Shown here: piece after piece, positions 6,522 through 26,353 of the stretch
How positions within the stretch are numbered: position 1 is the stretch's first letter
Layout of the letters: every line of letters starts with the position of its first letter
Assembly (NCBI RefSeq): GCF_026341775.1
Contig: NZ_JAPEOB010000001.1
Coordinates: forward strand, 2,604,001 to 2,668,000
DNA: 64,000 nt
Reading direction: 5' to 3'
DNA from: Streptomyces sp. NBC_00654
GTDB taxonomy: Bacteria > Actinomycetota > Actinomycetes > Streptomycetales > Streptomycetaceae
Notes under the pieces: generated by a model
What the model was told of the DNA's origin: nothing
Database searches by the model: none
Seen by the model: only the letters and a program-made list of their open reading frames with translations
Made by a program: the position numbers and the translations under genes

Positions 6522-7439
6522 GTGCGGTCCGTCCGTACGCTCGCGGCAGCGCTCGACGCGGGGCCCGTCCTGCTCGACGGCGGGCTCTCCAACCAGTTGG
6601 AGGCGCAGGGGTGCGATCTGTCCGACGCCCTGTGGTCGGCGAGGCTGCTCGCCGACGCGCCCGAGCAGATCGAGGCCGCGCACCTGGCGTATGTGCGGGC
6701 GGGTGCGCAGGTGCTCATCACCGCGGGCTATCAGGCGACGTTCGAGGGTTTCGAGCGGTACGGGATCGGACGGGCCCGCGCCGAGGAGCTGCTGGCCCGC
6801 AGTGTGCACCTGGCCGGGGCGGCCGCCGACGCGGCACGGCGGGAGAGCCCGGGACGGGAGATCTGGATCGCCGCGTCGGTCGGGCCGTACGGGGCGATGC
6901 TGGCGGACGGCAGCGAGTACCGGGGGCGGTACGGGCTCTCCGTACGGGAGCTGGAAGCCTTCCACCGCCCCCGGGTGGCCGTGCTGGCAGCCGCCGGCCC
7001 CGACGCGCTGGCCCTGGAGACGGTGCCCGACCTGGACGAGGCCGAGGCGCTGCTGCGGGTGACCGGCGAGTACGGGCTTCCGGTGTGGCTCTCGTACAGC
7101 GTCCTCGGGGACCGGACCCGGGCGGGGCAGCCGTTGCGGGAGGCCTTCGCGCTCGCCGCCGGGCAGGACCATGTGATGGCCGTCGGGGTCAACTGCTGCG
7201 ACCCGGCGGACGCGGACCGGGCGGTCGGGCTCGCGGCGGAGGTGACCGGCAAGCCGGTCGTCGTCTATCCGAACAGCGGGGAGCGATGGGATGCCGGGGG
7301 CCGGGGGTGGACCGGGGCGAGCACCTTCGACCCGGAGCGGGTGCGGTTCTGGACCCGGGCGGGGGCCCGGCTGGTCGGCGGCTGCTGCCGGGTGGGACCG
7401 GCGCGCATCGCGGAGCTGGCCGGCCAACTGGGGCGATGA
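6522..7439 (+). CDS. mmuM: Homocysteine S-methyltransferase
   Basis: MmuM-type homocysteine S-methyltransferase of 305 residues that makes methionine from homocysteine and S-methylmethionine. The Zn-binding cysteines are visible in VGVNCCDP and in the late GGCC motif (VGGCCRVGP). The N terminus holds VLLDGGLSNQLE, and FHRPRVAVLAAAGPDAL is family-like. The GTG at 6522 is preferred because GAAGAGGGAG ends about 9 bases upstream; GTG 6513 lies inside that site. Acts in the cytoplasm. Confidence 0.9.
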   Translation: MRSVRTLAAALDAGPVLLDGGLSNQLEAQGCDLSDALWSARLLADAPEQIEAAHLAYVRAGAQVLITAGYQATFEGFERYGIGRARAEELLARSVHLAGAAADAARRESPGREIWIAASVGPYGAMLADGSEYRGRYGLSVRELEAFHRPRVAVLAAAGPDALALETVPDLDEAEALLRVTGEYGLPVWLSYSVLGDRTRAGQPLREAFALAAGQDHVMAVGVNCCDPADADRAVGLAAEVTGKPVVVYPNSGERWDAGGRGWTGASTFDPERVRFWTRAGARLVGGCCRVGPARIAELAGQLGR

Positions 7440-14273: not shown

Positions 14274-15713
14274 ATGAGTTCCGGTCTGCGCCGCAAGAGT
14301 CCCGAGCAGCTGGTCGCCGAGTCCGGCGCCGACCTGGAGGGGCACGGTCTTCGGCGCACCATGGGCCTGTTCCAGCTCGTCTGTTTCGGGGTCGGGGCCA
14401 TCGTCGGCACCGGAATCTTCGTCGGGCTGTCCGACAGCGTCGCCGAGGCCGGACCCGCCGTCGTGCTGTCGTTCGTCCTCGCCGCCGTCACCTGTGTCTT
14501 CACGGCCTTCTCCTTCGCGGAGCTGGGCAGCGCGATCCCGGTCTCCGGCAGCTCGTACTCCTTCGCCTACGCGGCGCTGGGGGAGCGCACCGCGTTCCTG
14601 GTCGGCTGGTGCCTGCTGCTGGAGTACGGGGTCTCGGTCTCCGCGGTCGCGGTCGGCTGGAGCCAGTACGTCAACGAGCTGCTCGACAGCCTCGTCGGTC
14701 TGGAGCTGCCCGCGGCTCTGTCCGCCGGGCCGGGCGACGGCGGTGTGATCAATCTGCCCGCGATCGTGGTGATCATGATGGCCGCCACCCTGCTGGTGCG
14801 CGGCATCCGGGAGAGCGCGACGGCCACGGCGGCGATGGCGATCCTCAAGATCGGCATCCTGATCGCGTTCTGCGCGATCGCGTTCACGGCGTTCGAGGAC
14901 GGGAACCTGTCACCGTTCGCCGCCCAGGGGATGGGCGGCGTCACCGCCGGCGCGTCGCTGGCGTTCTTCTCGTACATCGGGTTCGACGCCATCACCACCG
15001 CGGGCGAAGAGGTCAAGAACCCCCGCCGGAACATCCCGATCGCCATCATGATCTGCATCGGAGTGGTCACCCTGCTCTACTGCGCGGTCGCCGTCTCGGC
15101 CATCGGCGCGCTCGGTGCCGACGCCGTCGCCGGCAAGCCGGCCGCGCTCTCGCTGATCGTCGACCAGGTCACCGGATCCACCGTGGGCGGCGGGATCATC
15201 GCCTTCGGGGCGGTCGTCGCGATCGCGTCCGTGGTGCTCGCGGTGATGTACGGGCAGACCCGCATCCTGATGTCGATGTCCCGCGACGGGCTGATCCCGC
15301 AGGTCTTCGAACGCGTCTCGCCCCGGACCCACACCCCGGTCGCCAACACCTGGATCGTGGCGACCGTCTTCGCGCTCCCGGCGGCCTTCTCGTCCCTGGA
15401 CGTCGTGGTCGGCCTGACGACCATCGGCACGCTGGCCACCATGGTCGCGGTGAATGTCGCGGTGGTCGTGCTGCGGCGGCGCGACCCCGGGCTGAAGCGC
15501 AGCTTCCGGGTGCCGCTCTACCCCGTGAGCCCGGTGCTGGGCGTCGCCTTCTGTCTGTATCTGATGTATGGGACGGGCTGGACGACCTGGGTCCAGTTCG
15601 CGGTCTTCCTGGCGGCCGGATCGCTGCTGTACGCCTGCTACGGACGCGGCCGCTCGCGGCTGGTCAGCTCAGCGGCGACGGGCCCGGCTGGGCCGGAATC
15701 GCCGGCAGGGTGA
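14274..15713 (+). CDS. APC-family amino acid permease
   Basis: Amino acid/polyamine/organocation permease of 479 residues, cationic amino acid transporter type. The first helix carries the family motif GVGAIVGTGIFV and the sixth region SYIGFDAITTAGEEVKNPRR; about 12 membrane segments follow. The position after arginine deiminase and ornithine carbamoyltransferase makes arginine or arginine/ornithine transport a fair guess. The ATG at 14274 gives the usual short cytoplasmic N terminus (LRRKSPEQL). The last 50 bp overlap, tail to tail, the opposite-strand kinase gene. Confidence 0.88.
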   Translation: MSSGLRRKSPEQLVAESGADLEGHGLRRTMGLFQLVCFGVGAIVGTGIFVGLSDSVAEAGPAVVLSFVLAAVTCVFTAFSFAELGSAIPVSGSSYSFAYAALGERTAFLVGWCLLLEYGVSVSAVAVGWSQYVNELLDSLVGLELPAALSAGPGDGGVINLPAIVVIMMAATLLVRGIRESATATAAMAILKIGILIAFCAIAFTAFEDGNLSPFAAQGMGGVTAGASLAFFSYIGFDAITTAGEEVKNPRRNIPIAIMICIGVVTLLYCAVAVSAIGALGADAVAGKPAALSLIVDQVTGSTVGGGIIAFGAVVAIASVVLAVMYGQTRILMSMSRDGLIPQVFERVSPRTHTPVANTWIVATVFALPAAFSSLDVVVGLTTIGTLATMVAVNVAVVVLRRRDPGLKRSFRVPLYPVSPVLGVAFCLYLMYGTGWTTWVQFAVFLAAGSLLYACYGRGRSRLVSSAATGPAGPESPAG

Positions 15714-16113
15714 ACCAGACCGCCTTGCCGTGCTCCGTGGTGCGGTGACCGCAGGCGGAACTGAGGGTGCGGATCAGGAGCAGGCCGCGGCCGTGCTCCT
15801 GCCAGGGGTCGGGCTCGCTGCCGGGCCGCGGGCGGGAGAGATCGCCCGGCGGGGCCGGGTCGCGGTCGTGGACCTCGACCTGGCAGCCGGTCGGCATCAG
15901 CTCCACGACCAGCTCGATGGGCCCGTGGCCCTCGGTGTGCTCGACGGCGTTGGCGACCAGCTCGGCCGTGAGGAGTTCGGCGGTGTCGCAGTCGGCGGGG
16001 GCGTCGATGTCCGACAGGGCGGTACGGATGAGGGCGCGGGCGATCGGTACGGCGGCGGTGGAGTGCGGCAGGGCGATACGCCAGGAGGCGGGCACGGGGA
16101 CATCGGGCGGCAC
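15664..16113 (-). CDS. RsbW-like ATP-binding anti-sigma kinase
   Basis: HATPase_c protein of 149 residues like the many RsbW/SpoIIAB-type serine kinases of Streptomyces. The N box reads ELVANAVEH, then VEVHDRDPAPP, and the ATP lid HGRGLLLIRTLSSACG. Partners would be an anti-anti-sigma factor or a sigma factor, but none is encoded beside it. GTG start at 16113. It is read toward the permease gene and overlaps its end. It stands alone, divergent from the aromatic catabolism genes. Confidence 0.85.
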   Translation of the reverse strand: MPPDVPVPASWRIALPHSTAAVPIARALIRTALSDIDAPADCDTAELLTAELVANAVEHTEGHGPIELVVELMPTGCQVEVHDRDPAPPGDLSRPRPGSEPDPWQEHGRGLLLIRTLSSACGHRTTEHGKAVWFTLPAIPAQPGPSPLS

Positions 16114-16280: not shown

Positions 16281-16306
16281 GTATCGCGTCCTCGTGACGG
16301 TAGTCA
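16281..16306 (+). promoter_or_regulatory. Operator candidate TGACGGTAGTCA upstream of echA
   Basis: A 12-bp interrupted palindrome TGAC-GGTA-GTCA (16295-16306), extended by CG on each side, 82 bp before echA. GTATCG lies at 16281-16286. The same 12-mer and the same GTATCG occur upstream of the acyl-CoA dehydrogenase gene at 23569. PaaX, encoded in the cluster, is the likely binder by location only. Confidence 0.6.
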
Positions 16307-16387
16307 CGTACGGGTGATAGTTTCGAAGGCGGAACGAGACCCGCGCAGTGCCATCCGGCAGCCCTACGGCTGAAGGGGACCGCCTCC

Positions 16388-17215
16388 ATGAGCCCTTTTC
16401 CCAGTTCCGCCCCGCGCACCGAGGACTGGCGCCATCTGCGGCTGACCAGACAGGACGGTGTGGCGACTGTCACGCTCGCCCGCCCGGAAAAACTCAACGC
16501 GCTCACCTTCGGCGCCTACGCCGACCTGCGTGACCTCCTCGCCGAACTCTCCAGGGAGCGCTCCGTACGCGCCCTCGTGCTCGCCGGTGAGGGGCGGGGC
16601 TTCTGCTCCGGCGGCGACGTCGACGAGATCATCGGTGCCACGCTCGCGATGGACACCGCGCAGCTCCTCGACTTCAACCGGATGACCGGCCAGGTCGTAC
16701 GGGCCCTGCGCGAATGCCCCTTCCCGGTCGTCGCCGCCGTCCACGGGGTCGCCGCGGGAGCCGGTGCCGTACTGGCCCTGGCCGCCGACTTCCGGATCGC
16801 CGACCCGTCCGCCCGCTTCGCGTTCCTCTTCACCCGCGTCGGTCTCTCCGGCGGCGACATGGGCGCGGCCTACCTCCTGCCGCGGGTCGTCGGCCTCGGC
16901 CACGCCACCCGGCTGCTGATGCTCGGCGAAGCCGTCCGCGCGCCAGAGGCGGAGCGGATCGGACTGATCAGCGAACTGGCCGAGGAGGGACGGGCCGACG
17001 CCCGCGCGGCGGAACTCGCCCGCCGCCTCGCCGACGGACCCGCCCTCGCGCTCGCCCAGACCAAGGCCCTGCTCACCGCCGAACTCGACATGCCGCTGGC
17101 CGCCGCCGTCGAAATGGACGCGGCGACCCAGGCACTGCTGATGCACGGCCGGGACTACGCCGAGTTCCATGCCGCCTTCACCGGGAAGCGGCCGCCGAAG
17201 TGGCAGGGGCGGTAG
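16388..17215 (+). CDS. Enoyl-CoA hydratase/isomerase family protein
   Basis: Crotonase-fold protein of 275 residues. The oxyanion-hole segments are present: ALVLAGEGRGFCSGGD and AAVHGVAAGAGAVLALAAD; ARFAFLFTRVGLSGGDMGAA follows. First gene of the operon that continues with the bifunctional flavoprotein, only four bases on. In a CoA-thioester route it would act on a dearomatised ring intermediate (hydration or ring opening). Exact substrate not deducible. An in-frame ATG at 16388 with AAGGGGA upstream supports the start. Confidence 0.85.
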   Translation: MSPFPSSAPRTEDWRHLRLTRQDGVATVTLARPEKLNALTFGAYADLRDLLAELSRERSVRALVLAGEGRGFCSGGDVDEIIGATLAMDTAQLLDFNRMTGQVVRALRECPFPVVAAVHGVAAGAGAVLALAADFRIADPSARFAFLFTRVGLSGGDMGAAYLLPRVVGLGHATRLLMLGEAVRAPEAERIGLISELAEEGRADARAAELARRLADGPALALAQTKALLTAELDMPLAAAVEMDAATQALLMHGRDYAEFHAAFTGKRPPKWQGR

Positions 17216-17219
17216 CGCC

Positions 17220-19502
17220 GTGGCGGCCGCCGCGCAGCGGATAGCGGTCATCGGCGGCGGGCCCGGCGGGCTCTACGCCGCGGCCCTCCTCAAACGGCTC
17301 GACCCGCACCGCGACATCACCGTCTGGGAGCGCAACGCCCCCGAGGACACCTTCGGCTTCGGCGTCGTCCTCTCCGACGAGACGCTCGGCGGCATCGAGC
17401 ACGCCGACCCCGTGGTGTACCGGCACCTGAGCGAGGAATTCGTCCGCTGGGACACGATCGACATCGTCCACCGGGGCCGCACCCACACCTCCGGCGGCCA
17501 CGGCTTCGCCGCCCTCGGCCGGCGCCGCCTCCTGGAGATCCTGCACGCCCGCTGCGCCTCCCTCGGCGTACACCTCCGCTTCCGCACCCCGGCGCCGCCG
17601 GCCGCCGAACTCGCGGCCCGCCACGACCTGGTCATCGCCGCCGACGGAGTGCACAGCGCCACCCGCGAGGCCCACGCCGACGCCTTCGGCCCGCGACTGA
17701 CCGCGCACCGCAACCGCTACATCTGGCTCGCCGCGGACTTCGCCCTGGACGCCTTCCGCTTCGAGATCGCCGAGACCGGGCACGGCGTGCAGCAACTGCA
17801 CGCCTACCCCTACGCGGCGAACGCCTCCACCGTCATCGTCGAGATGCGCGAGGAGGTCTGGCGGGCCGCCGGACTCGACACCGCCGGCCCCGCCGAGTCC
17901 GTCGCACACTGCGCCAAGACCTTCACCGAGGCACTGGACGGCAGGCCGCTGCGCGCCAACAAGTCCTCGTGGCTCACCTTCCGCACCGTCGTCAACACCC
18001 ACTGGTCGCACGGCAACACGGTCCTCATCGGGGATGCCGCCCACACCGCGCACTTCTCCATCGGATCCGGCACCAAACTCGCCGTCGAGGACGCCCTCGC
18101 GCTCGCCGCCTGCGTGGAGGAACAGCCCGACCTGCCCACGGCCCTGGCCGCGTACGAGCGGGAGCGCCGCCCGGTCGTCGCCTCCACCCAGCGCGCGGCG
18201 GCGGCCAGCCTGCGCTGGTTCGAGGAACTGGCCGCCTATGTGGACCAGCCGCCCCGCCGCTTCGCGTTCAACCTGCTCACCCGCAGCCGCCGTGTCACAC
18301 ACGACAACCTGCGGCTGCGCGACGCCACGTTCACCGCCGCCGTCGAGGAGGAGTTCGGCTGCCCGCCCGGCACCCCGCCGATGTTCACCCCGCTGCGGCT
18401 GCGCGGTCTCGAACTGCGCAACCGCGTCGTCGTCTCCCCGATGGACATGTACTCGGCCGTCGACGGGGTCCCCGGCGACTTCCACCTCGTCCACCTGGGC
18501 GCACGGGCGCTCGGCGGCGCCGGGCTCACCATGACCGAGATGGTGTGCGTCAGCCCCGAGGGCCGTATCACGCCCGGCTGCGCCGGTCTGTACACCGACG
18601 AACAGGCCGCCGCCTGGCGCAGGATCACCGACTTCGTGCACACGTCCGCGAACGGTGCCGCGATCGGCGTCCAGCTCGGCCACTCCGGCCGCAAGGGTTC
18701 CACGAAACTGATGTGGGAGGGCATCGACCAGCCGCTCGACACCGGCAACTGGCCGCTGTCCGCCGCCTCCCCGGTCCCGTACGCGCCCGGTGTCAGCCAA
18801 CTGCCCCGGGCGCTGGACCGGGCCGGACTCGACGCGGTCCGCGAAGAGTTCACCGCCGCCGCCCGGCGCGCCGCCCACTGCGGCTTCGACCTCCTCGAAC
18901 TCCACTGCGCCCACGGCTATCTGCTCTCCGGTTTCCTCTCCCCGCTCACCAACCACCGCACCGACGCCTACGGCGGCCCGGTCGGCAACCGGCTCCGCTA
19001 CCCCCTGGAGGTCTTCGACGCGGTCCGCGCCGTCTGGCCGCAGGACCGGCCCATGACCGTCCGGATCTCCGCCACGGACTGGGCGGAGGGCGGCACCAGC
19101 ACCGAGGACGCCCTCACGGTCGCACGCGCCTTCGCCGCGCACGGCGCCGACGCCATCGATGTCTCCACCGGCCAGGTGGTCCCCGGTGAACGCCCCGAGT
19201 ACGGCCGCTCCTACCAGACCCCGTACGCCGACCGCATCCGCAACACCGTCGGCGTCCCCGTCATCGCGGTCGGCGCCATCTCCTCCTGGGACGACGTCAA
19301 CTCGCTGCTCCTCGCGGGCCGCGCCGACCTCTGCGCCCTGGCCCGCCCGCATCTGTACGACCCGCACTGGACCCTGCACGCCGCCGCCGAACAGGGCTAC
19401 AGCGGTACGGCCGCGCCCTGGCCCCTCCCGTACCGGGCGGGCAGCCGCCCCCCGCCCACCGGCCGCACGGACGCGCCGAAGCCGAGACTCACCCTGGACT
19501 GA
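17220..19502 (+). CDS. Bifunctional aryl-CoA monooxygenase/OYE-type reductase
   Basis: Flavoprotein of 760 residues with two parts. Residues 1-390 form a class A FAD monooxygenase: IAVIGGGPGGLYAAALLKR, a DLVIAADGVHS motif, and VLIGDAAHTAHFSIGSG. Residues about 395-760 form an old-yellow-enzyme FMN reductase: FTPLRLRGLELRNRVVVSPM, GVQLGHSGRKG, HCAHGYLLSGFLSP. This fusion is that of 2-aminobenzoyl-CoA monooxygenase/reductase, also annotated as salicylyl-CoA 5-hydroxylase/oxidoreductase. It would hydroxylate and then reduce the aromatic ring of a CoA thioester. GTG at 17220 starts just after echA; the 3' end overlaps the opposite-strand hypothetical gene by 14 bp. Confidence 0.9.
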   Translation: MAAAAQRIAVIGGGPGGLYAAALLKRLDPHRDITVWERNAPEDTFGFGVVLSDETLGGIEHADPVVYRHLSEEFVRWDTIDIVHRGRTHTSGGHGFAALGRRRLLEILHARCASLGVHLRFRTPAPPAAELAARHDLVIAADGVHSATREAHADAFGPRLTAHRNRYIWLAADFALDAFRFEIAETGHGVQQLHAYPYAANASTVIVEMREEVWRAAGLDTAGPAESVAHCAKTFTEALDGRPLRANKSSWLTFRTVVNTHWSHGNTVLIGDAAHTAHFSIGSGTKLAVEDALALAACVEEQPDLPTALAAYERERRPVVASTQRAAAASLRWFEELAAYVDQPPRRFAFNLLTRSRRVTHDNLRLRDATFTAAVEEEFGCPPGTPPMFTPLRLRGLELRNRVVVSPMDMYSAVDGVPGDFHLVHLGARALGGAGLTMTEMVCVSPEGRITPGCAGLYTDEQAAAWRRITDFVHTSANGAAIGVQLGHSGRKGSTKLMWEGIDQPLDTGNWPLSAASPVPYAPGVSQLPRALDRAGLDAVREEFTAAARRAAHCGFDLLELHCAHGYLLSGFLSPLTNHRTDAYGGPVGNRLRYPLEVFDAVRAVWPQDRPMTVRISATDWAEGGTSTEDALTVARAFAAHGADAIDVSTGQVVPGERPEYGRSYQTPYADRIRNTVGVPVIAVGAISSWDDVNSLLLAGRADLCALARPHLYDPHWTLHAAAEQGYSGTAAPWPLPYRAGSRPPPTGRTDAPKPRLTLD

Positions 19503-20043
19503 CCCGGCCCGCGTCCCCGTCCGCCCCCGCCTCCGCGACCGCGCCCGCGTCCCCGTCCGCCCCCGCCCCCGCCTCCGCGACCGCGCCCGCCGCCTCGGCC
19601 CCGGCGGCCGTCAGGCACTCGTGGCAGCGGCAGGGGACCGGGTGCGGCGCCGCGTGATGCGCGTGCCGCTCCTCCCGGGCGATCCGTTCCAGCAGGGCGG
19701 CCAGTTCCTCCGCCTCCCCCTGGGTGCCCGTCGGCGTCCCGGTGCTCCCGGCGCGTGCCAGCACGGCCGGGCTGTACACCAACTGGGCCCGGAAGGTGTG
19801 CAGATGGCGGGTTCCCGTGTCGATGGCGATGAAGCGCCGGGTGTGCCGGCCGCGCCCCACGGTGGTCAGCTGCTGGTGGCCCGTCCCGGGGTAGGTGCCG
19901 ATGACGTACACCTTGGTGCCGCCCCGGTACGCCTTGGTCCCCGGGCGCAGTTCCTGGCCGAGATCCCCGTACCGGCGCCAGCGCACCACATTGGCCGCGA
20001 CCAGCCAGACGGCCTCCGGCCCGGATTCCCCGTCCGCGCTCAA
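19489..20043 (-). CDS. Hypothetical protein with Ala/Gly/Asp repeat tail
   Basis: A 184-residue protein I do not recognise. It starts at a TTG (20043) that overlaps the stop of the acetyltransferase gene (TTGA) and is preceded by GGAGGAGG, so translational coupling is well supported. The body has a compact motif set (NVVRWRRYGDLGQEL, GTKVYVIGTYPGTGH, RFIAIDTGTRHLHTFRAQLV) and a PCRCHECL cysteine cluster that could bind a metal. The last 40 residues are an Ala-Gly-Asp-Glu repeat. Its 3' end overlaps the flavoprotein gene on the other strand. Confidence 0.65.
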   Translation of the reverse strand: MSADGESGPEAVWLVAANVVRWRRYGDLGQELRPGTKAYRGGTKVYVIGTYPGTGHQQLTTVGRGRHTRRFIAIDTGTRHLHTFRAQLVYSPAVLARAGSTGTPTGTQGEAEELAALLERIAREERHAHHAAPHPVPCRCHECLTAAGAEAAGAVAEAGAGADGDAGAVAEAGADGDAGRVSPG

Positions 20044-20864
20044 CGTGCCTCCTCCGCGCTGATCAGCAGCCGGTCCGAGACCGGCTCGTACCCGATGCGC
20101 CGGTACACCCCGTTGCTGGTCGGATTCGCGAGGTCCGTGAACAGCAGGACCTCGGCCGCACCCGCCGCCCGTGCCGCCCGGCTGACCTCGGCCGTCACCG
20201 CGGCCGCGTAGCCGTGGCCCCGGTGCTCCGGCGGGGTGTACACACCCGCCACCCGCACCGCCCCCGCGGTCTCCGGCGAGACGCAGGCCATCGACACCGG
20301 AGCGCCCCCGTCCTCCCACAGGGTCAGCCTGCCGTCCGCCGTCCGCTCGTCGACGAACCGTTCCGCGTGGGTGCCCGGCTGGCCGACCTGCTCCGCGAAC
20401 GCCAGGTGCCAGGCCACGAGCAGCTCCCGGTCGGCGGCGACGGCGGCCCTGGGCCGGCCCGGCGGCGCGGGCGAGGGCGGGATCAACTCGCCCAGCCGGT
20501 ACAGCCGCTGTTCCTGCTCGACCCGGTGTCCGGGCCAGCCCGCGGCCAGGGCCTCGGCGCTCACCCGGTCCGCGCTGACGGTCGTCGGGTTCAGGGCCTC
20601 GGCCAGCGGACCGAGCGCCTCCGGGACCACGGAACCCAGCATCGGCGGATACGGCGGGGTGTGCACCAGCGTCCCCGCCACCTCGCCGTCCGCCCCGCGC
20701 CACCAGCCGAGCAACGGGTCCTCCTCGCCGTAGGCGTGCGGGCCGGTACGCCGCAGTGTCCCGGTGACGGTCAGCACCAGGGTGTTCTCGGCGGGACGGG
20801 CGGCGAGCGAGGCCCCGGCCGCGTCCAGGAACGCGTCGACGTCATCGGTGAAGGTCCAGGTCAT
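20040..20864 (-). CDS. GNAT-family N-acetyltransferase
   Basis: Acetyltransferase-fold protein of 274 residues. The C-terminal half has the acetyl-CoA binding pattern GVYTPPEHRGHGYAAAV followed by LFTDLANPTSNGVYRRIGY, typical of the FR47-like GNAT group. The N-terminal half is poorly conserved. The ATG at 20864 (MTWTFTDDVDAFL) is preferred to a start 12 codons upstream that adds a low-complexity Arg-rich leader. It is coupled to the hypothetical gene downstream. Substrate unknown. Confidence 0.8.
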   Translation of the reverse strand: MTWTFTDDVDAFLDAAGASLAARPAENTLVLTVTGTLRRTGPHAYGEEDPLLGWWRGADGEVAGTLVHTPPYPPMLGSVVPEALGPLAEALNPTTVSADRVSAEALAAGWPGHRVEQEQRLYRLGELIPPSPAPPGRPRAAVAADRELLVAWHLAFAEQVGQPGTHAERFVDERTADGRLTLWEDGGAPVSMACVSPETAGAVRVAGVYTPPEHRGHGYAAAVTAEVSRAARAAGAAEVLLFTDLANPTSNGVYRRIGYEPVSDRLLISAEEAR

Positions 20865-20978
20865 GCATGCATCCTGACGGGAACGCGGACCGCGCGGCAT
20901 CCGGATTTCGCCCGGTGGACGGGGCGTGCGCCACCGGTACGGCGCCGTGGGCCGCCGCCGCGCCGCCGGCCCCGCACC

Positions 20979-21800
20979 TCACCGCCGTACGAACCGCTCC
21001 CCGGCATCCCGCAGCCGCTCGTGCAGCAGCCCGAACACCTCCGCCGAGCGGCCCCCCGGCCACTCCTTCGGCAGCAGCTCCTCCGGCAGCCCCGGGTCCG
21101 CGTACGGCAGCCGGCGCCAGGAGTCCAGCGCCGGCAGATAGTCCCGGTAGGCCTCCCGCGGATCGGGGGCGCCGTCCTGCCCGGACCGGTCCTCCCAGGC
21201 CCGCAGTACCGGTTCGTGCCGTGCGAGGAAGTCCAGATGGAGCCGGGCGACGGCGTCCAGGTCCCACCAGCGCGCCACCGACTCCCGTGTCGCGGCGAAG
21301 CCGAGGTGCTGGGCGCGGAACAGGTCCACGTACGGGGCGAGTTCCAGCCGCTCCAGGGTGTGCCGGGTCTCCTCGTACAGCCCGGCGGGTGCGATCCACA
21401 CGCCGGGGGCCGCCGTGCCGAAGCCCAGCCGGGACAGCCGCGAGCGCAGCAGGTGCCGCTTGTGGCGCTCGGCTTCGGGTACGGAGAACACGGCGAGCAC
21501 CCAGCCGTCGGCGAGCCGGGGCGCCGGATGCCGGTAGATCCGCAGGTCACCGTCGTCCAGCAGCTGGCGGGCGTCGGCCGACAGCGTGTATCCGGCCGCG
21601 CCGTCCGCGGTCCGGGCCGGGACCAGCAGTTCGCGTCGTTTGAGACGGGAGACGGAGGAGCGTACGGACGGCGCGTCGACACCGACGGCGCCCAGCAGCC
21701 GGATCAGCTCGGCCACCGGCAGCGGGGCGTTGCCGGGGGAACGGCCGTAGGCGCCGTAGAGGGTGACGATCAGGGAACGGGGGGTATGGAGCTCGGCCAC
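20979..21800 (-). CDS. paaX: PaaX-family transcriptional regulator
   Basis: PaaX-type regulator of 273 residues with an N-terminal winged helix (PRSLIVTLYGAYGR, then SVRSSVSRLKRRELL) and the PaaX C-terminal domain. PaaX proteins repress CoA-thioester catabolic operons and are released by an aryl-CoA effector. Here it lies between the flavoprotein operon and the aryl-CoA ligase, and is the only regulator in the cluster. GTG start at 21800, with a GTGATCAC palindrome just upstream. Inferred targets are the two TGACGGTAGTCA sites. Confidence 0.87.
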   Translation of the reverse strand: MAELHTPRSLIVTLYGAYGRSPGNAPLPVAELIRLLGAVGVDAPSVRSSVSRLKRRELLVPARTADGAAGYTLSADARQLLDDGDLRIYRHPAPRLADGWVLAVFSVPEAERHKRHLLRSRLSRLGFGTAAPGVWIAPAGLYEETRHTLERLELAPYVDLFRAQHLGFAATRESVARWWDLDAVARLHLDFLARHEPVLRAWEDRSGQDGAPDPREAYRDYLPALDSWRRLPYADPGLPEELLPKEWPGGRSAEVFGLLHERLRDAGERFVRR

Positions 21801-21867
21801 GTGATCACTCTAGGGGCTGTCCGGTACATGGCGCCGTCCGCCTTGGGGGCGGGCCGGGCGGGAGGTG

Positions 21868-23526
21868 TCACCGGGGCGGGACGGTGTTCTCCCGCAGCCG
21901 GAACCGTTGGAGCTTGCCGGTCGCGGTCCGGGGCAGGGCGGCCGTGAACTCGAAGACGCGTGGGCACTTGTGCGGGGCGAGCGCGCCTTTCATATAGGCG
22001 CGCAGGGAGTCCGCCGACTGCGAGGAACCCTCCCGCAGGACCACGTACGCCACCACGATCTGGCCGCGCAGCTCGTCGTCCCGGCCCACCACGGCGGCCT
22101 CCGTCACCTCGGGGTGGCGCAGCAGGGCCTCCTCCACCTCGGGGCCCGCGATGTTGTAGCCGGAGGAGATGATCATGTCGTCGGCGCGGGCGACGTAGCG
22201 GAAGTAGCCGTCCGGCTCACGGACGTACGTATCGCCCGTCATGTTCCAGCCGTTGCGCACGTACTGCGTCTGCCGGGGGTCGGCGAGATAGCGGCAGCCG
22301 ACGGGGCCGCGCACGGCGAGCAGCCCCGGTTCGCCGTCGGGCAGTTCCTCGCCGTCCTCGTCGACCACCCGCGCCTCCCAGCCCGGGACCGGGACGCCGG
22401 TGGTGCCGGGGCGGATGGCGTCGTCGGCGGCCGAGATGAAGATGTGCAGCAGCTCGGTGGCCCCGATGCCGTTGATGATGCGCAGCCCGGTCCTCTCGTA
22501 CCAGGACCGCCAGGTCGCGGCGGGCAGATTCTCCCCCGCCGACACACAGCGGCGCAGCGCGGACAGGTCGTGGCCGTCGAGCCGGTCGAGCATCGTGCGG
22601 TACGCGGTCGGCGCGGTGAACAGCACCGAGACCCGGTGTCTGGCCAGCGCGGGCAGCAGCTGCCCGGGGCCCGACTGCTCCAGCAGCAGCGATGAGGCCC
22701 CCACTCGCAGGGGGAAGATCACCAGTCCGCCGAGCCCGAAGGTGAAGCCCAGCGGCGGGCTGCCGGCGAACACGTCGTCGGGCACGGGACGCAGCACATG
22801 GCGGGAGAAGGTGTCGGCGACGGCCAGTACGTCGCGGTGGAAGTGCATACAGCCCTTGGGCCGGCCCGTGGTTCCCGAGGTGAACGCGATCAGGGCGACA
22901 TCGTCGGCGGCGGTGTCCACGGCCGGGTAGGGGCCGGGGCGGGACTCGGCGAGCCGGGTCAGATCGTCCGGGCCGTCCCCGCCGTAGAGGGTGATCCGCA
23001 CCCCCGGGACCCCGGCGTTCACCAGGTCGTCGGCACCGCGCGCGTCACACAGCGCGTGGCTGACCCGGGCCAGCGAGCAGATGGTGGCCAGCTCCTGCGA
23101 GCGGGCCTGCGCCAGTACGGTGACGGCGACCGCGCCCGCCTTCATCACCGCGAGCCAGCAGGCGGCCAGCCAGGGAGTGGTGGGGCCGCGCAGCAGCACA
23201 CGGTTGCCGGGGGAGACGTCCAGATCGTCCGTGAGGACATGGGCGATCCGGTCCACCCGGTCCCGCAGCTCACCGTAGCTCCAGACGGTGCCGTCGTCGG
23301 TGCGGAAGGCGGGGCGGTCGGGGCCCAGATGGCCGATGGTGGCGTCCAGCAGTTCGTAGCCGCAGTTCAGCCGGTCGGGGTAGCGCAGCTCCGTACGGTC
23401 GAGTGCCAGCTCGGGCCACTGACCGGGCGGCGGGAGATGGTCACGGGGAAAGGTATCGGTGTGCGCGCTCGATATGCGCGTGGCGCTCTTGGACGCCTGC
23501 GCACCCGGCGAGGAATTCGGCTCCAT
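21868..23526 (-). CDS. Benzoate/2-aminobenzoate-CoA ligase
   Basis: ANL-family acyl-CoA ligase of 552 residues. The AMP-binding loop reads IAFTSGTTGRPKGCMH, the A5 region NGIGATELLH, and the C-terminal hinge and catalytic Lys lie in RADDMIISSGYNIAGPEVE and TATGKLQR. The segment ELRYPDRLNCGYELLD is characteristic of 2-aminobenzoate-CoA and benzoate-CoA ligases. It would activate the aromatic acid for the bifunctional flavoprotein. It is divergent from the acyl-CoA dehydrogenase gene and shares its 91-bp promoter region with the palindromic site. Substrate choice (anthranilate, salicylate or benzoate) is inferred from neighbours. Confidence 0.88.
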   Translation of the reverse strand: MEPNSSPGAQASKSATRISSAHTDTFPRDHLPPPGQWPELALDRTELRYPDRLNCGYELLDATIGHLGPDRPAFRTDDGTVWSYGELRDRVDRIAHVLTDDLDVSPGNRVLLRGPTTPWLAACWLAVMKAGAVAVTVLAQARSQELATICSLARVSHALCDARGADDLVNAGVPGVRITLYGGDGPDDLTRLAESRPGPYPAVDTAADDVALIAFTSGTTGRPKGCMHFHRDVLAVADTFSRHVLRPVPDDVFAGSPPLGFTFGLGGLVIFPLRVGASSLLLEQSGPGQLLPALARHRVSVLFTAPTAYRTMLDRLDGHDLSALRRCVSAGENLPAATWRSWYERTGLRIINGIGATELLHIFISAADDAIRPGTTGVPVPGWEARVVDEDGEELPDGEPGLLAVRGPVGCRYLADPRQTQYVRNGWNMTGDTYVREPDGYFRYVARADDMIISSGYNIAGPEVEEALLRHPEVTEAAVVGRDDELRGQIVVAYVVLREGSSQSADSLRAYMKGALAPHKCPRVFEFTAALPRTATGKLQRFRLRENTVPPR

Positions 23527-23557
23527 GAAGGATCGCCCCCTTGTCGCCTCTGGAGCG

Positions 23558-23593
23558 TATCGTTTGAGTGACGGTAGTCAACGGTCCGCGATA
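23558..23593. promoter_or_regulatory. Operator candidate in ligase/dehydrogenase divergent promoter
   Basis: TGAC-GGTA-GTCA (23569-23580) with GTATCG at 23557-23562, in the 91-bp gap between two divergent genes. It is flanked by an outer inverted pair TATCG (23558-23562) and CGATA (23589-23593). The core 12-mer is identical to the one before echA. One site could control both directions. Confidence 0.6.
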
Positions 23594-23617: not shown

Positions 23618-24751
23618 ATGACGGTATTCTCCCTCGATCCGGCACAAACCGCATGGTGTGAAGAGCTGCGTACCCTCGCCGAGGAGCGGCTGCGCCCGCT
23701 CGCGGAGAAGGGCGGGCCCGGACACGTCAACCGTCCGCTCCTCGCCGCGCTGGGAGAGCTGGGCCTGCTCGGCAGGCTCTTCGGCTCCGGCGCCCTGGAC
23801 CTCTGTCTGCTCCGGGAGTCCCTGGCCCGCGGCTGCACCGAGGCCGAGACCGCGCTCGCCCTCCAGGGCCTGGGCGCGTCTCCGATCGTCCAGGCGGGCA
23901 CGGCCGCCCAGCGCGAACGCTGGCTGCCGGAGGTCCGCGCGGGCCGTGCCGTCGCCGCCTTCGCGCTGAGCGAGTCCGGCGCGGGCTCGGATGCCGCGGC
24001 CCTCTCGCTGGCGGCCGACCGCACACCGGACGGCTGGCGGCTGACCGGGGGAAAATGCTGGATCTCCAACGCGCCCGAAGCCGATTTCTACACGGTCTTC
24101 GCCCGCACGACGCAGGGCGCCGGAGCCCGTGGTGTCACCGCGTTCCTGGTCCCGGCCGACCGCCCCGGACTCACCGGAGCGGCCCTCGACATGCTCTCCC
24201 CGCACCCGCTGGGCACCCTCGACTTCGACGGCGTACCGGTCACCGCCGACGACCTGCTCGGCGAACCGGACCGGGGCTTCAGGGTCGCGATGAACACCCT
24301 CAACCTCTTCCGGCCGAGCGTGGGGGCCTTCGCCGTCGGCATGGCGCGGGCCGCCCTCGACGCGACCCTGGACCACACCTCCGTACGCACCGCGTTCGGC
24401 GGTCCGCTGCGGGACCTCCAGGCGGTCTCCCACCAGGTCGCCGAGATGGCCACCCGCACCGAGGCCGCCCGGCTCCTGGTGTACGCGGCCGCCGCCGCCC
24501 ACGACGCGGGCGAACCGGGCGTGCCCCGGCGCGCGGCCATGGCCAAGCTGTACGCCACCGAGACCGCGCAGTACGTCGTGGACGCGGCCGTCCAACTGCA
24601 CGGCGCCCGCGCACTGCGCCGCGGCCATCTCCTGGAACACCTCTACCGGGAGGTCCGCGCGCCCCGGATCTACGAGGGCGCCAGCGAGGTGCAGCGCACG
24701 ATCATCGCCAAGGAGCTGTACGCCCGTCCGACCCAGGAGCCGCCCGTATGA
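23618..24751 (+). CDS. Acyl-CoA dehydrogenase
   Basis: Acyl-CoA dehydrogenase of 377 residues, FAD-dependent. Signatures: AFALSESGAGSDAAAL, WISNAPEADFYTVFAR, and the late YEGASEVQRTIIAKEL that carries the catalytic Glu region. The ATG at 23618 follows AAGAGAGG. The frame is open to 23459, but that stretch lies in the divergent promoter and ligase gene. It overlaps ridA by four bases. In the cluster it should oxidise a saturated or ring-derived CoA intermediate. Confidence 0.9.
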   Translation: MTVFSLDPAQTAWCEELRTLAEERLRPLAEKGGPGHVNRPLLAALGELGLLGRLFGSGALDLCLLRESLARGCTEAETALALQGLGASPIVQAGTAAQRERWLPEVRAGRAVAAFALSESGAGSDAAALSLAADRTPDGWRLTGGKCWISNAPEADFYTVFARTTQGAGARGVTAFLVPADRPGLTGAALDMLSPHPLGTLDFDGVPVTADDLLGEPDRGFRVAMNTLNLFRPSVGAFAVGMARAALDATLDHTSVRTAFGGPLRDLQAVSHQVAEMATRTEAARLLVYAAAAAHDAGEPGVPRRAAMAKLYATETAQYVVDAAVQLHGARALRRGHLLEHLYREVRAPRIYEGASEVQRTIIAKELYARPTQEPPV

Positions 24752-25149
24752 GCCCTGTCCAACGCATCAACCCGGCCGAACTCGCCCCGCCCACCGGCTT
24801 CTCGCACGCCGTCACGGCCGAGGGCGGACAGCTGGTCTTCCTCGCCGGGCAGACCGCCCTCGACCCCGACGGCAAGATCATCGGAGGCACGCTGCCCGAG
24901 CAGTTCGCGACGGCGCTCACCAATCTGCTCACCGCCCTGCGCGCGGCGGGCGGCGCCCCCGCGGACCTGGTACGGGTCACGGTGTACGCCACCGACATCG
25001 CCGACTACCGCGCCCACGCCGGTGAACTGGGCCGGGTCTGGCGGAGTCTGGCCGGGCGGGACTATCCCGCGATGGCGGTGATCGGCACGGTCCGGCTCTG
25101 GGACGAACAGGCCCTGGTGGAGCTCGACGGGATCGCCGTGCTGCCCTGA
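24748..25149 (+). CDS. ridA: RidA-family enamine/imine deaminase
   Basis: RidA/YjgF/TdcF-type protein of 133 residues. Conserved pattern: VFLAGQTALDPDGKIIGG, NLLTALRAAGGAPADLVRVTVYATD, and the substrate Arg/Glu region toward ALVELDGIAVL. These proteins hydrolyse reactive enamines/imines to ketones and ammonia. After reduction of 2-aminobenzoyl-CoA the product is an enamine, so this gene is a natural partner and favours an amino-substituted substrate. ATGA overlap with the dehydrogenase gene. Confidence 0.88.
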   Translation: MSPVQRINPAELAPPTGFSHAVTAEGGQLVFLAGQTALDPDGKIIGGTLPEQFATALTNLLTALRAAGGAPADLVRVTVYATDIADYRAHAGELGRVWRSLAGRDYPAMAVIGTVRLWDEQALVELDGIAVLP

Positions 25150-25219: not shown

Positions 25220-26353
25220 TCAGTACGGCTTGACCAGCACGTGGGCGGCCCCCGGAATACCGACCTTCAGCAGCTCGTCCTCCTCGGGCGTCGTCGCGTT
25301 GCCGGTCTCCTGCTTCAGGATCGCCCGCGACATGCTCTGCACCCACATGGCGCGCGGCCTGCGCCGGGCCTCCCAGGCGGTGAGGGCCGCGGCGACGTCG
25401 TCCTCGGCGTCCAGCGACTCGGCCAGCACCTGCGCGTCCTCGACGGCCATCGCCGCGCCCTGCGCCAGATGCGGGGTGCTGGCGTGCGCGGCGTCACCGG
25501 CCAGCACGACCCGGCCCACGTGCCACGGCTCCTCGACCGTCACCTGCGAGATCCGCGAGTACACCACGGCCCGCGGGTCGGTGACATGGCGCAGCGCCTC
25601 GGCGACCGGCCCGGAGAACCCGGCCAGCCGCTCCGCGAGCTGCTCGTGCGCCCGCTCCGGGTCCGGCCGGAAGTCCTCGGCCTCGGCGAACACCGCGCCC
25701 AGGTACATCAGTTCGTCCGTGATCGGGGTGAGCAGCGCCTTCGCGGCCTGATTGCCCGTGCTCATCACGACACCCTGGACCTCGGGCTGACGGGGCACGG
25801 TGACCCGCCAGTTGGCGAAGCCGGTGTACTCGGGCCGGAAGCGGTCGCCGTAGAGCCGGGTGCGCAGCGGCGAGCCGATGCCGTCGAAGCCCACGACCAG
25901 GTCCCAGCGGGCGGCCGAGCCGTCGGACAGGGTCACATCCACCCCGGCGCCGTCGTCGGTCAGCCCGGTGATCGTCGCGCCGAAGCGGACCGGCACTCCG
26001 GCGGCCGTCGCGGCCTGGCCGAGCACCTCGGCCAGGGCGGGGCGCGGTATGCCGTTGTTGGAGGGGGCATCGCCCATCCGCGGCTGCGGGATCCTGGCGA
26101 GCGTGGCGCCGGCCGGGTCGCAGATCGTCAGCACCTCCCACTCGAAGCCCGCCTTCACACAAGCGTCGAGCACCCCGATCTCCCGCATGACGTGCAGGGC
26201 GTTGGAGGGCTGGATGATGCCGACGCCGAGCGCGTCCAGCTCCTCGCGCAGCTCGACGACCTCGACGGTGTGACCGCGCCGGGCCAGCGCGACGGCGAGG
26301 GTCAGTCCGCCGATCCCGCCGCCGTGGATCAGTACGCGCAGGGGTGATGCCAT
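25220..26353 (-). CDS. FAD-dependent monooxygenase in cvnE position
   Basis: Class A flavoprotein monooxygenase of 377 residues. FAD-binding is shown by VLIHGGGIGGLTLAVALARRGH, WDLVVGFDGIGSPLR, and VVLAGDAAHASTPHLAQGAAMA. It lies 64 bp downstream of cvnD of conservon 2 in the same direction, where conservon P450 genes usually lie, and may be co-transcribed with it. It also neighbours the aromatic cluster, tail to tail with ridA, so a role there is possible. Substrate unknown. The gap before it is purine-rich with a GGAG site. Confidence 0.87.
   Translation of the reverse strand: MASPLRVLIHGGGIGGLTLAVALARRGHTVEVVELREELDALGVGIIQPSNALHVMREIGVLDACVKAGFEWEVLTICDPAGATLARIPQPRMGDAPSNNGIPRPALAEVLGQAATAAGVPVRFGATITGLTDDGAGVDVTLSDGSAARWDLVVGFDGIGSPLRTRLYGDRFRPEYTGFANWRVTVPRQPEVQGVVMSTGNQAAKALLTPITDELMYLGAVFAEAEDFRPDPERAHEQLAERLAGFSGPVAEALRHVTDPRAVVYSRISQVTVEEPWHVGRVVLAGDAAHASTPHLAQGAAMAVEDAQVLAESLDAEDDVAAALTAWEARRRPRAMWVQSMSRAILKQETGNATTPEEDELLKVGIPGAAHVLVKPY

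Follow-up and report, generated by a model that had tools for sequence, protein, structure and literature searches.

A conserved composite site, probably a PaaX operator, precedes the genes of a predicted anthranilate-CoA pathway in Streptomyces

Two copies of a 12-bp palindrome, TGACGGTAGTCA, stand in an aromatic-CoA gene cluster of Streptomyces sp. NBC_00654, within the stretch of 64,000 nucleotides analysed here (the window; contig NZ_JAPEOB010000001.1, positions 2,604,001 to 2,668,000). They form the cores of two longer sites. S1 precedes echA, which starts at 16388, and S2 lies between the divergent starts of an aryl-CoA ligase gene (23526, − strand) and an acyl-CoA dehydrogenase gene (23618, + strand). 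We consider it quite probable that both are operators, at which the cluster's own PaaX-type repressor would cover the likely −35 boxes and be released by an aryl-CoA, anthraniloyl-CoA being the likely one. DNA recognition by PaaX-family repressors is poorly defined, and according to the consulted part of a 2022 review, a PaaX-operator complex had yet to be solved (PMC9493321). An operator carried by the majority of genomes in a large genus, and found in variant form in other families, offers matched sets of protein and site for testing recognition, and it lets the regulon of the predicted anthranilate pathway be read from sequence.

Both palindromes lie on the + strand, where the original prediction had placed them (Table 1), and the window holds no third exact copy. 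A genome-wide count leaves that prediction standing: the whole genome of 9,625,177 bases contains two exact copies, both in the cluster. There are 21 further copies at one mismatch, and the reversed control, counted at up to one mismatch, has 18; since the copies are near the control level, it is the exact pair that stands out from the background. Given two copies, the probability of finding them within 7.3 kb is about 0.0015. The exact letters are nonetheless not what is conserved, nor are they diagnostic elsewhere, because of the 55 exact copies found in 40 of 150 genomes of the genus only 24, by our own count, lie at the orthologous cluster. A search of the NBC_00654 genome for a wider regulon, with TATCGCG-N6-TGACG-N3-GTCA at up to three mismatches, gave only two matches at two mismatches besides S1 and S2, and its totals, 59 in all and 44 with the reversed pattern as control, lie close to background. 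The regulon thus looks confined to this one cluster.

The promoters of orthologous clusters, which the prediction had singled out for comparison, keep both sites. We fetched 80 stretches around PaaX matches and placed the cluster genes in them by tblastn; the profiles use the 69 whose PaaX is at least 60% identical, 11 of lower identity being left out. In each stretch the site was taken as the best match to the 12-mer in the promoter, and columns outside the 12-mer were not used for finding it. The echA start is in reach in 55 of the 69 stretches, 54 with TGAC-N4-GTCA and one (L144) a single base off. The ligase is present in 65, that is, in all except L127, L140, L160 and L161, and TGAC-N4-GTCA accompanies every one of them. 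The outer arms, which played no part in site picking, are found as TNTNGCG upstream of S1 in 54 of 55 loci and as CGCGA(T/C)A downstream of S2 in 65 of 65. Mean pair identity is 0.74 over the S1 block (−13 to +29 of the palindrome) versus 0.32–0.34 in the flanks, a value slightly too low, as two S1 rows are aligned on the wrong 12-mer after a tie; over the S2 block (−16 to +24) it reaches 0.85 versus 0.31–0.39. The commonest letters are TATCGCG-N6-TGACG(A/G)(C/A/T)(A/G)GTCA-N7-GTGATA-N2-TT for S1 and AGCGTA(T/A)CG-N6-TGACG(A/G)(C/T)AGTCAAC-N4-CGCGATA for S2.

Genus-wide, we counted the whole blocks (43 bp for S1, 41 bp for S2) with one mismatch allowed in the 150 genomes, using reversed blocks as controls. 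The S1 block occurs once each in 124 genomes and the S2 block once each in 129, and the reversed controls have no match in any of the 150, which bears out the earlier claim that the pair is unlikely to be due to chance. In the 124 genomes with a close monooxygenase ortholog (at least 73% identical), S1 is found in 123 (missing in G078) and S2 in 123 (missing in G102); all 124, by our own count, carry at least one block. Six of the 26 genomes without such an ortholog have a block, S1 in one (G050, an incomplete genome) and S2 in six. Among 80 named loci that overlap the first set, a strict S2 is present in 74 and a strict S1 in 48, with no match for two scrambled controls. At L117, L122, L123 and L259, which keep the ligase next to paaX but not the other pathway genes, a site still precedes the ligase. 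A shorter pattern, TATCGCG-N6-TGAC-N4-GTCA at one mismatch, had given 137 of 150 genomes; it was replaced by the whole-block counts because it included background, with TACCGCGAGGGCATGACCGAGGTCA recurring in many genomes and 31 reversed-control matches (own count).

The two sites share their layout and direction: S1 facing echA and S2 facing the ligase both read TATCGCG-N6-TGAC-N4-GTCA, which together with the opposite arm makes a nested dyad of 38 bp. Both inner palindromes overlap predicted −35 boxes. The original prediction had also pointed to GTATCG upstream of each palindrome. Its positions are right (16281-16286, 8 bp before, and 23557-23562, 6 bp before), but the column profile of the aligned sites led us to drop it as one common element, as its roles appear to differ: at S2 it overlaps the predicted ligase −10, and at S1 it falls within the outer arm TATCGCG, upstream of the promoter. 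The base after the conserved AGCGTA at S2 is more variable (T 51, A 10, G 4 in 65 loci).

The likeliest binder, in agreement with the earlier proposal, is the cluster's PaaX, judging from the position of its gene, from the precedent of MeqR2 and from palindromes at the expected promoters of plasmid pAL1. In 63 of 65 loci the gene comes immediately after that of the ligase, and a scan of nine cluster genes showed no regulator besides PaaX. PF07848, PF20803 and PF08223 (N-terminal, central Cas2-like and C-terminal) all score above their gathering cut-offs and place the protein in the PaaX family; it fails the phenylacetate PaaX equivalog TIGR02277, with 137.4 bits versus 264.55 needed. A PaaX match is found in 143 of the 150 genomes of the genus (E up to 0.001, paralogs included). 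Of the 136 genomes that have a PaaX ortholog, 126 carry at least one block, as do 4 of the 14 that lack the ortholog (own count). VRSSVSRLKRR, the likely recognition helix of the window protein, hardly varies in most rows of the family; it is altered in the orphan PaaX of L140, which has neither pathway nor site, and unchanged in the other orphans. We also observe PaaX orthologs (63-73% by tblastn) at L127, L140, L160, L161, L254 and L255 that have no close pathway genes beside them and no composite site; in L160, two palindromes without outer arms lie just past the end of paaX, at 6795 and 6892.

MeqR2, the PaaX-type repressor of plasmid pAL1 of Arthrobacter sp. Rue61a, is said (Niewerth et al. 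2013, J Bacteriol) to bind TGACGNNCGTcA, with anthraniloyl-CoA as effector. The motif TGACGNNCGTCA, which agrees with this operator, is found on pAL1 at three promoters, those of two quinaldine operons and of one PaaX gene, and a copy with one mismatch stands at a fourth, between RidA and a lower-pathway operon. Compared with TGACGNNCGTcA, TGACGGTAGTCA agrees at 9 of 10 specified positions, position 8 being A. The two systems have in common a PaaX-type gene beside genes for an anthranilate-CoA ligase, a 2-aminobenzoyl-CoA monooxygenase/reductase and RidA (anthranilate here following from homology), and a TGACG....GTCA palindrome at the pathway promoters. An outer arm is also seen at one pAL1 site (TGTCGCG, L163:3728) and at a Rhodococcus plasmid site (TATGTCG, L166:9749). 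They differ in that the Streptomyces spacer ends in A or G, rarely C, and is flanked by TATCGCG arms at fixed spacing, and in the operon layout of the window, with echA and an acyl-CoA dehydrogenase in the cluster. By this comparison the Streptomyces sites would be a variant of an already known kind of operator, set apart by the end of the spacer and the outer arms, rather than the new kind first supposed, and the 12-mer is only the core of a block of 41-43 bp. A literature search found no paper on a Streptomyces PaaX operator, most subscription journals lying outside its scope.

According to the consulted part of the review, E. coli PaaX, the phenylacetate regulator, binds TGATTC(N27)GAATCA (PMC9493321), which the window site does not match, as had been suspected. 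The two share the protein family, relief of repression by an aryl-CoA (as predicted for the window protein), and an outer dyad of similar length (39 bp there, 38 bp here). The half-site sequence differs, the same source cites no inner TGAC-N4-GTCA dyad for E. coli, and the window protein stays under the TIGR02277 cut-off. The review's consulted part also describes PaaR proteins as alternative regulators of phenylacetate genes (PMC9493321); as predicted for the window PaaX, they govern an aryl-CoA pathway, but they belong to another protein family, TetR-type.

The composite layout extends beyond Streptomyces. We examined 24 loci, 20 stretches from other genera and 4 plasmid loci, and in 14 of them there is an exact TGAC-N4-GTCA whose arms score no less than 7 out of 10 at spacing 6; the one in L271 sits at the edge of the matched monooxygenase gene. 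Across the 28 TGAC-N4-GTCA sites that lie outside matched pathway genes in these loci, the arms score on average 6.5 out of 10 with a spacing of 6, and twelve alternative spacings gave means of 0.9-4.2. It is this spacing scan, not the arm pattern, that serves as the control, because the pattern was fixed after viewing the other-family loci. The full mirror TATCNCG-N6-TGAC-N4-GTCA-N6-CGNGATA is present in a second, paralogous ligase-monooxygenase cluster of genome G089 (L258, 9844), whose near-perfect symmetric site reads TATCGCG-N6-TGACCGTCGTCA-N6-CGAGATA, and in less exact form in other families (L260, L263, L265, L266 and L269). In the Streptomyces paralog clusters L149-L151, L154 and L155 a related form, with one or two mismatches, precedes RidA.

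We propose that PaaX bound at S1 and S2 over the −35 boxes would block RNA polymerase sterically at two promoters, TGACGG-17-TAGTTT for echA and TTGACT-16-TACGCT for the ligase, both of which, like the blocking itself, are predicted from sequence. By analogy with MeqR2, from which we take both binder and effector, an aryl-CoA, likely anthraniloyl-CoA, would release PaaX and turn the pathway on. PaaX would also repress itself, because paaX adjoins the ligase gene on the same strand. The cluster appears, from gene spacing, to form three units, echA-flavoprotein (+), ligase-PaaX-GNAT (−) and dehydrogenase-RidA (+); S1 and S2 together therefore stand before all three, in line with the idea of the original prediction that they control all pathway genes. 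As a guess from geometry, two dimers might fill four boxes, whose centres are 8 bp apart inside and 31 bp outside. A broader and more tentative proposal, on which we lean slightly towards doubt, is that actinobacterial PaaX-type repressors of anthranilate-CoA pathways read a nested four-box operator, the full mirror given above, with two dimers locking over one promoter and the outer boxes as a recognition element. To our knowledge, such outer boxes are absent from PaaX-family motifs. If the proposal is true, they would explain cooperative repression.

Several observations weigh against the reading of S1 and S2 as operators of the cluster's PaaX. Neither site is a clean dyad: at S1 the downstream arm shares bases with the −10, and at S2 it is either shifted by 2 bp or missing. 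The window spacer ends in A, not in C as in the motif given for MeqR2; no S2 row and only one S1 row (L126) has C at position 8. Identity between the window PaaX and the two PaaX proteins of pAL1 is only 42-46%, and the pAL1 proteins fall on another branch in a quick tree with mixed support at its base. Two more one-mismatch copies on pAL1 lie within moaE and upstream of superoxide dismutase, and 10 of the 24 other-genus and plasmid loci (L262, L272, L273, L275-L278 and L163-L165) lack an exact palindrome whose arms score 7 or higher. In Streptomyces, both blocks are missing from 10 of the 136 genomes that have a PaaX ortholog (G014, G062, G068, G076, G082, G084, G092, G094, G125 and G130; G076 has a degenerate S2, L117), so that the blocks track the target genes better than they track PaaX. 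To judge from sequence, they go with the pathway genes, which is required of any operator, and PaaX is not proven by the blocks alone. Finally, G072 (L247), G075 (L248) and G023 (L252) keep the cluster and both blocks with no PaaX between the ligase and its neighbour.

These three clusters and the ten genomes without a block are also what speaks for real operators bound mainly by a different, trans-acting protein, PaaX having a minor or dispensable part. We regard this as unlikely. PaaX is the sole regulator scanned in the cluster and almost always directly follows the ligase, and similar palindromes precede pathway genes and a PaaX gene on pAL1. Moreover, all three genomes with PaaX-less clusters carry another PaaX-family protein elsewhere, in each case only a paralog 48-53% identical. 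The neighbours scanned beside these paralogs are unrelated, and no good composite site was found in those stretches. The fourth genome with a block and no PaaX ortholog, G008, has both blocks on a contig that ends inside the ligase. It is one of eight genomes with no or a very weak PaaX match; the other seven (G010, G037, G043, G113, G120, G121 and G135) have no block, and the pathway is absent there too.

It is far less probable that the repeat is mere core-promoter sequence, shared −35 and −10 boxes read by no repressor. In its favour, each palindrome shares bases with a predicted −35 box, as does GTATCG at S2 with a predicted −10. Against this, the TATCGCG arm of S1 lies upstream of the −35, with sequence beyond the arm not conserved; the second half-site falls in the spacer; the dyad symmetry and the 6-bp arm spacing recur in other families; and the exact 12-mer is found at no other promoter of the genome. 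Chance, as two identical 12-mers without function, can be dismissed: the zero-order expectation from base composition (0.33 exact copies per genome) is not negligible and 31 of the 55 exact copies in other genomes lie outside the cluster (own count), but it is already refuted, since the whole blocks are conserved across the genus ahead of these genes and the reversed controls have no match.

The pathway preceded by these sites is most likely the aerobic breakdown of anthranilate via 2-aminobenzoyl-CoA, because identity to pAL1 genes is 54% for the ligase, 62% for the flavoprotein and 54% for RidA, and because of the ligase activity in Rue61a. As the consulted part of that study describes, anthranilate-CoA ligase activity was obtained by expressing two ligase genes of Rue61a, of which one is carried by pAL1 (PMC3534580); going by gene order, the pAL1 ligase found active would be the one compared here. 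By profile search the flavoprotein has two domains, an FAD monooxygenase fused to an old-yellow-enzyme domain. Its NCBIfam name, bifunctional salicylyl-CoA 5-hydroxylase/oxidoreductase, suggests salicylate as the substrate, which we consider less likely than anthranilate: RidA is present, the ligase matches that of pAL1, and the monooxygenase of the pAL1 anthranilate cluster carries the same automatic name.

Table 1. Genes of the cluster and predicted elements of S1 and S2, in window coordinates.
Feature	Position	Strand	Basis
echA, enoyl-CoA hydratase family	16388..17215	+	Pfam ECH_1; NCBIfam NF006107 above cut-off
2-aminobenzoyl-CoA monooxygenase/reductase-like fusion	17169..19502	+	NF006101, 1214 bits vs cut-off 1078; 62% identical to pAL1 enzyme
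GNAT acetyltransferase, downstream of paaX on the same strand	20040..20900	−	Pfam Acetyltransf_1
PaaX-type regulator	20979..21800	−	Pfam PaaX, PaaX_M and PaaX_C above cut-off; TIGR02277 below
Aryl-CoA ligase (AMP-forming), predicted anthranilate-CoA ligase	21868..23526	−	54% identical to pAL1 ligase
Acyl-CoA dehydrogenase	23618..24751	+	Pfam Acyl-CoA_dh_1, _M, _N
RidA-family protein	24748..25149	+	Pfam Ribonuc_L-PSP; 54% identical to pAL1 RidA
S1 composite operator (predicted) before echA, TATCGCG-N6-TGACGGTAGTCA-N6-GGTGATA	16282..16319	+	Block conservation
S1 inner palindrome TGACGGTAGTCA	16295..16306	+	TGAC-N4-GTCA in 54/55 loci
S1 upstream outer arm TATCGCG, 6 bp from palindrome	16282..16288	+	TNTNGCG in 54/55 loci; exact TATCGCG in 39
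Predicted echA −10 TAGTTT, preceded by TG (extended −10)	16318..16323	+	TANNNT in 55/55 loci
Predicted echA −35 TGACGG, 17-bp spacer to −10	16295-16300	+	Promoter function inferred
S2 composite operator (predicted), between ligase and acyl-CoA dehydrogenase	23556..23593		Block conservation
S2 inner palindrome TGACGGTAGTCA	23569..23580	+	TGAC-N4-GTCA in 65/65 loci
S2 outer arm, CGCGATA on + and TATCGCG on −, 6 bp from palindrome	23587..23593	−	61/65 loci; CGCGACA in the other 4
Predicted ligase-operon −10 TACGCT, overlapping GTATCG	23554..23559	−	AGCGTA on + in 63/65 loci
Predicted ligase-operon −35 TTGACT, 16 bp from −10, overlapping palindrome	23576..23581	−	GTCAA on + in 64/65 loci

The listed ATG of the monooxygenase/reductase gene falls within echA, and many relatives align only from about residue 20 (window 17169-17240); for this reason its true start may lie some 50-70 bp further downstream. 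Upstream of S1, a divergent gene with a HATPase domain (15664-16113) is probably not part of the system, because the flank there is not conserved in relatives. At the other end, a gene for an FAD monooxygenase (25220-26353) is convergent with RidA and falls outside the predicted regulated units; it also stands beside the cluster in the close relatives L083, L084, L086-L090 and L248.

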